Notes under the pieces: generated by a model
Told to the model about the DNA's origin: nothing
The model's input: the letters and a program-made list of their open reading frames with translations, nothing else
Database searches by the model: none
Translations under genes and position numbers: made by a program
Part shown: piece by piece, positions 1 through 57,820 of the stretch
Position numbering within the stretch: the first letter of the stretch is position 1
Layout of the letters: each line of letters begins with the position of its first letter
Source: Ignavibacteriota bacterium
GTDB taxonomy: Bacteria; Bacteroidota; Ignavibacteria; Tepidaquicellales; Tepidaquicellaceae
Assembly (NCBI GenBank): GCA_026390735.1
Contig: JAPLFJ010000004.1
Span: forward strand, 1-64,000
Direction: 5' to 3'
DNA length: 64,000 nucleotides

Positions 1-46
1 AGAAACCATAAATTAGCCGAAAGAAAGCGTTTTGTTTTTTTTTCGC

Positions 47-66
47 CTTCCCCCCTAGGGGGGAAG
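47..66. repeat. perfect 20-bp palindrome
   Basis: Six C and six G flank a central TA, with CTT/AAG arms, so the 20 bases read identically on both strands. Pyrimidine/purine tracts on either side (AAAGAAAG near 21-28 and CTTTCTTTC near 73-82) could extend the stem imperfectly. A T-run lies before it on the plus strand and none follows it on either strand, so it is not a standard intrinsic terminator. No gene is visible between here and position 260. Confidence 0.6.
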
Positions 67-259
67 AATGCTCTTTCTTTCTTCCTTAATTTAATAATTT
101 CTCTTTTAACCATTTACACATAATTTTTTACACTCCCTGAATAATTGCACATTTATCTGTGATTTTTAAAGATAGAATTGCTAAATTAATATTGTGATGT
201 TTTTTTATATTTACACAAAAAATTTTACACCCTCCTTGGATACGAGAAAATTTACTGTT

Positions 260-375
260 TTCAGGCACGTTCAGGTCCACTTCTCGTATGTTTCTCGTAT
301 GTTTCTCGTATGTTTCTCGTTCACCTTGCGCTCTAACTAGGCTCAAGATAGGCTTGAACCTCGTATATTCCTCGT
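260..375. repeat. 11-bp-period heptamer array A
   Basis: Read on the plus strand, heptamer cores begin at 260 (TTCAGGC), 270 (TTCAGGT), 281, 292, 303 and 314 (TTCTCGT four times), 325 (CTTGCGC), 336 (ACTAGGC), 347 (GATAGGC), 358 (ACCTCGT) and 369 (TCCTCGT). Apart from the first step (10 bp), every step is exactly 11 bp, leaving 4-bp spacers; ATGT is used three times and the others vary. A related TTCTCGC at 382 is two bases out of phase. Similar cores sit next to each other in blocks. One helical turn per unit would suit a protein binding along one face of the DNA, but that is inference. The rest of 1-535 shows no gene; the array lies beyond the end of the truncated metH-like gene. Confidence 0.75.
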
Positions 376-535
376 TCATGGTTCTCGCAAAACCGGATGG
401 ACGTATAAAATCTTACAGAAATATCTGTAATGGCAAAATCAGTGAAAATAATAGTATTATAAGTGAAGGGATAAATAATAGAAGGAAGAACAACCGTAAA
501 GATTGTCTGCCAGTGGATTTACTCAGTAGTTTTGT

Positions 536-47500: not shown

Positions 47501-47584
47501 AATACACCTCTAATACACTACTAATCCACCAGAAATACAACTTACTTGGTACTATCTTGGTATCATCTCCCTAATAACTTGCTC
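47501..47584. repeat. 11-bp-period heptamer array B
   Basis: Cores start at 47501 and 47512 (AATACAC), 47523 (AATCCAC), 47534 (AATACAA), 47545 and 47556 (CTTGGTA), 47567 (CTCCCTA) and 47578 (CTTGCTC): eight units in strict 11-bp register. The 4-bp spacers (CTCT, TACT, CAGA, CTTA, CTAT, TCAT, ATAA) are unrelated. As in array A, the core changes in blocks. The surrounding interval 47188-47658 has no convincing gene. Confidence 0.75.
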
Positions 47585-57780: not shown

Positions 57781-57820
57781 TGGCGCAGTGGTGGCGCACA
57801 CGTGACGCACTTTTGGCGCA
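57781..57820. repeat. 11-bp-period heptamer array C
   Basis: TGGCGCA at 57781 and 57792, TGACGCA at 57803 and TGGCGCA at 57814 are in exact 11-bp register with spacers GTGG, CACG and CTTT. In the same register follow TCTGCTA (57825), CCTACTT (57836), CTCACTT (57847), CACCCGT (57858) and CAACAGG (57869), where adjacent pairs again resemble each other, so the array may run to about 57875. The 700-bp interval 57405-58106 has no convincing gene; this patch is clearly richer in G+C than its flanks. Confidence 0.65.

Follow-up and report, generated by a model that had tools for sequence, protein, structure and literature searches.

The strict 11-bp array near the start of the window, by which is meant the whole 64,000-nucleotide stretch of DNA analysed here, is real and larger than first described. 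This array (array A) is one copy of an element, named type 1, that recurs in the same genome, that of an uncultured lake bacterium of the Ignavibacteriota, and in a congener, and it is accompanied by arrays of other words with the same step. The best reading, to which a probability of about 0.4 is assigned, is that these are dispersed, phase-locked minisatellite elements changing by helical turns, whose cores are probably kept as putative sites for a cooperatively binding protein.

Register and modules of the type-1 element

The heptamers reported in the initial annotation lie where they had been placed. It placed ten of eleven cores at 11-bp steps; the single 10-bp step vanishes once TTTCAGG is read at 259, and CTTGCGC at 325 is an additional in-register unit that had apparently gone uncounted. 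Each unit consists of a 7-bp core and a variable 4-bp spacer, giving a step of 11 bp (Table 1). At this lag 68 of 117 positions match, and at the double (lag 22) 46 of 106, against 21-40 matches of 107-123 positions for the other lags from 5 to 21. The best 55-base stretch contains 40 lag-11 matches. When window 1-535 was shuffled 5,000 times at order 3, the highest value was 34, and 3.84 Mb of shuffled window likewise contained no locus with 40 matches per 55 bases; the possibility that shuffled sequence gives similar arrays, raised at the outset, was thus tested, and the shuffles gave none.

The array had been described as neither a CRISPR nor a simple tandem repeat, and both descriptions are borne out. 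Its cores are 7 bp and its spacers 4 bp long, where a CRISPR array has repeats of about 20-50 bp and spacers of comparable size, and most units are alike in register and unlike in sequence: the perfect-repeat portion comprises 3.6 of about 12 units (281-320), the others keeping the register but not the sequence. As for a coding repeat, the arrays lie outside long open reading frames, and the frames that overlap them are short. The spacers, on the other hand, are not the mostly unrelated tetramers they were taken for. They are drawn from a limited set (atgt, tcac, tcta, tcaa, atat, tcat and more), and in type-1 copies they tend to move together with the core that comes next.

Table 1. Arrays and associated modules in the window.
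Feature	Position in window	Strand	Description
Leader units	237..258	+	TGGATAC.gaga and AAATTTA.ctgt; in the register of array A; shared with other type-1 copies
Inverted core inside leader	240-249		ATACGAGAAA
Array A (type-1 element)	259..386	+	12 in-register 11-bp units: TTTCAGG, TTCAGGT, TTCTCGT x4, CTTGCGC, ACTAGGC, GATAGGC, ACCTCGT, TCCTCGT, GGTTCTC; unit starts 259, 270, 281, 292, 303, 314, 325, 336, 347, 358, 369, 380
Tail motif	430..470	+	ATGGCAAAATCAGTGAAAATAATAGTATTATAAGTGAAGGG; 3' of array A, also 3' of type-2 arrays
Array B	47501..47562	+	AATACAC x3, AATACAA-type core, then CTTGGTA x2; 11-bp steps
Array C	57781..57820	+	TGGCGCA, TGGCGCA, TGACGCA, TGGCGCA; 11-bp steps

Sixteen type-1 copies were found, eight in the genome of the window (array A and seven others) and eight in one congener; the search was positive in one of four congeners and in none of the remaining 57 relatives. 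All copies follow a common word order: the leader, TTTCAGG, repeated TTCAGGT or TTCTCGT, CTTGCGC, ACTnGGY/ACTTGCT and GATAGGY, after which come TCCTCGT, TTCTCGT, TTCAGGT or TTGTCGT. Words are repeated, absent or swapped between copies, so that, for example, ACTTGGT can precede or follow CTTGCGC. The blocks of like cores noted in array A are therefore present but not private to it, as the same words recur, partly permuted, at 15 other loci in two species. In the 15 copies from the two species that hold both anchors, the distance from TTTCAGG/TTTCTCG to GATAGG is always an integer number of 11-bp units (4, 6, 7 or 8; the copy g4_432 has six), and in an independently made alignment of 14 copies the mid-array length differences fall in 11-base gaps. 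Among type-1 copies, 11-bp modules are lost, gained or exchanged as complete units, and the register is kept.

Downstream of the array, the motif AATAATAGTATTATAAGTGAAGGG was found just after an array in all five sampled copies, one of type 1 (that of the window) and four of type 2, the largest of the other families; further divergent copies of the tail were read by eye. Since the tail follows both types, arrays of different words share one downstream module. When the tail is written as GGCAAAA..GAAAATAATAGTATTATAAGTGAAGGG, with the near-palindrome ATAATAGTATTAT, it is seen only downstream of 11-bp arrays (window 430-470, L025, L042, L092, L094, L096 and L100).

Upstream, window 1-138 and 141-236 are the ends of two different repeated IS-like elements; the genome has about seven and eight near-identical copies of them, respectively, most of which lie at the ends of contigs. 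Membership of a known transposon end had been named at the outset as an observation that would refute the description of array A, and this was tested. The end at 141-236 abuts the type-1 element directly, but array A is not itself an IS end: among the seven other type-1 copies, the 141-236 element was seen only near C10, about 130 bp away, and for this reason the array is not regarded as part of the IS-like element. Clean empty sites were not obtained; synteny is broken at the loci tried in other congeners.

Core families sharing the 11-bp step

The two further arrays reported in the window are real (arrays B and C). Array C belongs to an element of about 110 bp with two further copies in the sampled genome stretches, three in all. 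In intergenic DNA, a de novo scan of stretches from the same genome gave one excess that stood out, period 11 together with its double at 22. The overlapping pattern matches of the largest family, AGACYAA (type 2), number 43 for this genome and 27 for the congener, with none in the other relatives searched. The 21 type-2 arrays read in this genome have mostly 4-5 units, and their 75 internal spacers comprise 21 distinct sequences, GATA being the commonest last spacer (11 of 21); this small vocabulary is common to different loci. Further 11-bp families include ATGCGGT, AACGCGT, TGACTAT, CGCACTT and more, about ten families altogether. At a threshold of 32/55, about 977 kb of this genome gave 30 lag-11 loci, against zero for the nine relatives sampled (885 kb); many of the stretches from this genome had been chosen around type-1 or type-2 arrays, and nine of the 30 loci remain when only families outside that choice are considered. 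Several unrelated core families of one genome thus have the same period, which supports the original view that the architecture, rather than any one sequence, is conserved.

Some other regularities were observed in the same material. A subgroup of type-2 arrays carries TGACA..TGTCA palindromes on both flanks (L009 18760-18870, L020 7780-7900, L056 17440-17560, L089 4590-4700 and L074 about 1480-1600). In the intergenic sample of G000, three-unit chains of period 9 number 23, compared with 8.2 in shuffles, and the sampled relatives (L103-L108, L284-L323) have an excess at lags 14 and 21, not 11.

How the arrays change was followed in five array comparisons between the two species, made at four loci because the congener assembly holds one locus in two versions. 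Cores differ at 22 of 273 sites (8%) and spacers at 48 of 156 (31%; Fisher P 3e-9), with flanks differing at 9-34%. At locus L054 the congener has lost most of the type-2 array, from which it follows that no single array is indispensable. The same intergenic region of the congener holds a fresh, near-perfect AGACCGA.gaga array, the unaligned stretches being 249 and 248 bp long; these observations suggest that arrays arise by 11-bp tandem duplication and decay. While an array is present its core words and helical phase hold, and the comparison of the two species argues for a constraint on both. The earlier proposal of a scaffold for a cooperatively binding protein is the one that fits best, given the integer-unit lengths in 15 of 15 copies and cores that change far less than spacers.

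Homogenisation between copies could, however, mimic a constraint on the cores, and this is how core conservation would be accounted for by the main rival. On this view the arrays would be selfish or neutral MITE-like repeats that serve no function for the host; slippage or unequal exchange in 11-bp steps would expand their internal minisatellite, and copying would carry it from locus to locus. Such an explanation is a real though tentative possibility. It accommodates multicopy, dispersed, intergenic elements that are patchy between species, a small spacer vocabulary common to different loci, leader and tail modules, and fresh near-perfect 11-bp duplications, and it has a described analogue in BrickBuilt (PMC4596501). 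It sits less easily with the period common to unrelated core families, with a register that survives word changes and with spacers less constrained than cores; in addition, type-2 copies mostly have no shared flank outside the array, and target duplication was not seen.

In the preferred reading, which combines minisatellite growth with protein binding, arrays would originate when a single helical turn is duplicated in tandem, and they would be retained if each core were the contact site of a candidate DNA-binding protein assembling head to tail, one subunit per turn. It is proposed that phase-breaking changes are selected against and that the spacer drifts because one subunit per turn contacts each core. 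This assembly is the simplest model for the constant phase, the changing words, the drifting spacers and the indifference to orientation, with both the protein and its benefit as putative components, and it predicts a phase-reading, cooperatively assembling protein. Against it, the existence of about ten core families would need either one permissive protein or several, and the genome yielded three OmpR-type proteins and no RHH_1 protein.

Genomic context and candidate binding proteins

The arrays are intergenic and indifferent to gene orientation, those of type 2 being found between convergent, divergent and tandem genes in either orientation. As position and strand relative to genes are irrelevant, a bound array would be a local nucleoprotein patch and not a promoter switch; such a patch is proposed to organise the chromosome, to insulate, or to let a selfish element capture its own protein. 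Of the 30 neighbours tested with Pfam, those that have family matches are housekeeping or otherwise unrelated genes with no common function, among them a homocysteine S-methyltransferase/pterin-binding protein (metH-like), ScpA, a succinate dehydrogenase/fumarate reductase flavoprotein, ribosomal protein L2, GAPDH, an isocitrate/isopropylmalate dehydrogenase, thiamin pyrophosphokinase, an RF-1 domain protein, an inositol monophosphatase and others. No transposase or DNA-binding regulator was among these 30, and no par genes were among the tested neighbours.

Three families were tried as gene markers of the arrays and rejected, being few, absent, or present in array-free congeners too. Y1_Tnp genes occur in seven of seven genomes searched, including three congeners without arrays; OmpR-type (Trans_reg_C) proteins number three in this genome, as in array-free congeners; and RHH_1 is absent from this genome, from four congeners and from a Chitinophagaceae genome with 11-bp arrays of its own, 8 of 14 control genomes being positive. 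The co-occurring recombinase or regulator gene that had been anticipated was accordingly not found by these searches. The ParM-type actin family PF06406 matched in no genome, the control genomes being silent too.

Some ParMRC systems use 11-bp iterons to which ParR binds cooperatively, one per turn, and the initial annotation had likened array A to parC. The 11-bp spacing is indeed the same, but ParR-parC provides one centromere beside parM/parR, whereas here dozens of chromosomal loci per genome lie beside housekeeping genes, no RHH_1 protein was detected and the tested neighbours lack par genes, which makes ParR/parC-like centromere sites extremely improbable.

An RNA element has also been considered, in which the array would be transcribed and its 7-nt words would be repeated seeds for pairing or would be recognised by an RNA-binding protein. 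One turn of an A-form helix is 11 nt as well, and the opposing arms of the Chitinophagaceae element described below could pair. Folding, however, is no stronger than in shuffles (z -1.4 to +1.1), consensus pairs are absent in 14 type-1 copies, Rfam has no match at the arrays, and the strand relative to genes is not fixed; an RNA role is very improbable.

The geometry is reproduced exactly by operators of the OmpR/PhoB type, which together with BrickBuilt MITE minisatellites are the nearest precedents. PhoP from Mycobacterium tuberculosis recognises a 7-bp motif with a strict 4-bp spacer, binding head to tail and cooperatively, and OmpR/PhoB-type proteins also bind this 7+4 arrangement as trimers and tetramers (PMC4832192). 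Each core family could then be the direct-repeat site of one response regulator. The context differs, though: PhoP-type operators have few motifs and stand at promoters, whereas arrays here can have 12 or more units, switch cores, and are positioned independently of promoters. Arrays much longer than usual operators, present in both orientations and also between convergent genes, beside neighbours of no common function and in a genome with only three Trans_reg_C proteins, render this explanation very improbable.

Described elements and occurrence in other lineages

The closest described element is BrickBuilt from Porphyromonas gingivalis, a MITE minisatellite that is always intergenic, with about 19 copies per genome and a leader-array-tail organisation (PMC4596501). 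The arrays described here are likewise intergenic, multicopy and confined to few species, and they too combine a leader, a tandem array and a tail with a variable number of units, which in BrickBuilt varies between strains. BrickBuilt, however, repeats a single 23-nt unit without spacers and has small inverted-repeat ends, whereas here 7+4 bp units of several unrelated core families carry changing words, and no terminal inverted repeat of the element was seen by eye. Direct repeats of the heptamer TAACTGA in Beggiatoaceae and others, including Bacteroidetes, are also abundant, intergenic and patchy in distribution (PMC4679880). In the available part of that report they consist of one heptamer with no spacer described, mostly just upstream of start codons, and, unlike the families here, related heptamers are rarely repeated in the Beggiatoaceae genome. 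REP/RAYT systems are palindromic repeats associated with a Y1 transposase, a family that here occurs both in this genome and in array-free congeners. A limited search of the literature yielded no description of block-changing 11-bp arrays.

Should each helical turn keep its one core as words and spacers are replaced, what the element conserves is geometry. Such arrays would be likely to escape a search that looks for a fixed motif or an exact tandem repeat, or to be misclassified by it; a lag-11 scan detects them at once and offers a simple route to the same architecture in other genomes.

The AGACYAA pattern has at least 110 matching stretches over 85,000 species. Many of the matches listed come from assorted bacteria and are tandem repeats with a strict 11-bp step; the culturable Niastella sp. 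OAS944 and Pedobacter sp. BAL39, with AGACCAA-type arrays, are also among the matches listed. In viral contigs 29 stretches have period 11, 13 have period 10 and 23 have period 13; since the pattern also occurs at other periods in these contigs, the viral matches look like ordinary tandem repeats and were set aside.

In the Chitinophagaceae MAG MJ130916A_bin-0263, opposing arms of 11-bp units make up a dispersed element of about 150 bp, some copies of which have extra 22-bp pieces. This MAG has more 11-bp arrays with other words, with four loci at 32/55 in 222 kb of stretches chosen independently of arrays and 0-2 at other lags. As this unrelated genome has 11-bp arrays of its own, the architecture is found, with different words, in two lineages or more. 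A wider generalisation would recognise a class of intergenic DNA elements, defined by helical phase instead of sequence, that Ignavibacteriota possess and Bacteroidota possess separately. Exchangeable 11-bp words would be bound, one per turn, by a polymerising, word-tolerant protein forming dispersed nucleoprotein filaments along the chromosome; taken as a whole, this generalisation is considered unlikely.

In Chitinophagaceae MAGs the element of about 150 bp usually ends in a GC-rich hairpin, ACCGGGGTTTTTCCCC (L125, L130, L162, L179, L185, L195, L126, L176 and L366-L385). Bacteroidia MAGs (L116, L138, L139, L154, L196 and L212) hold blocks of TGGGTAA and AGACTAA at 11-bp steps, partly as inverted copies.
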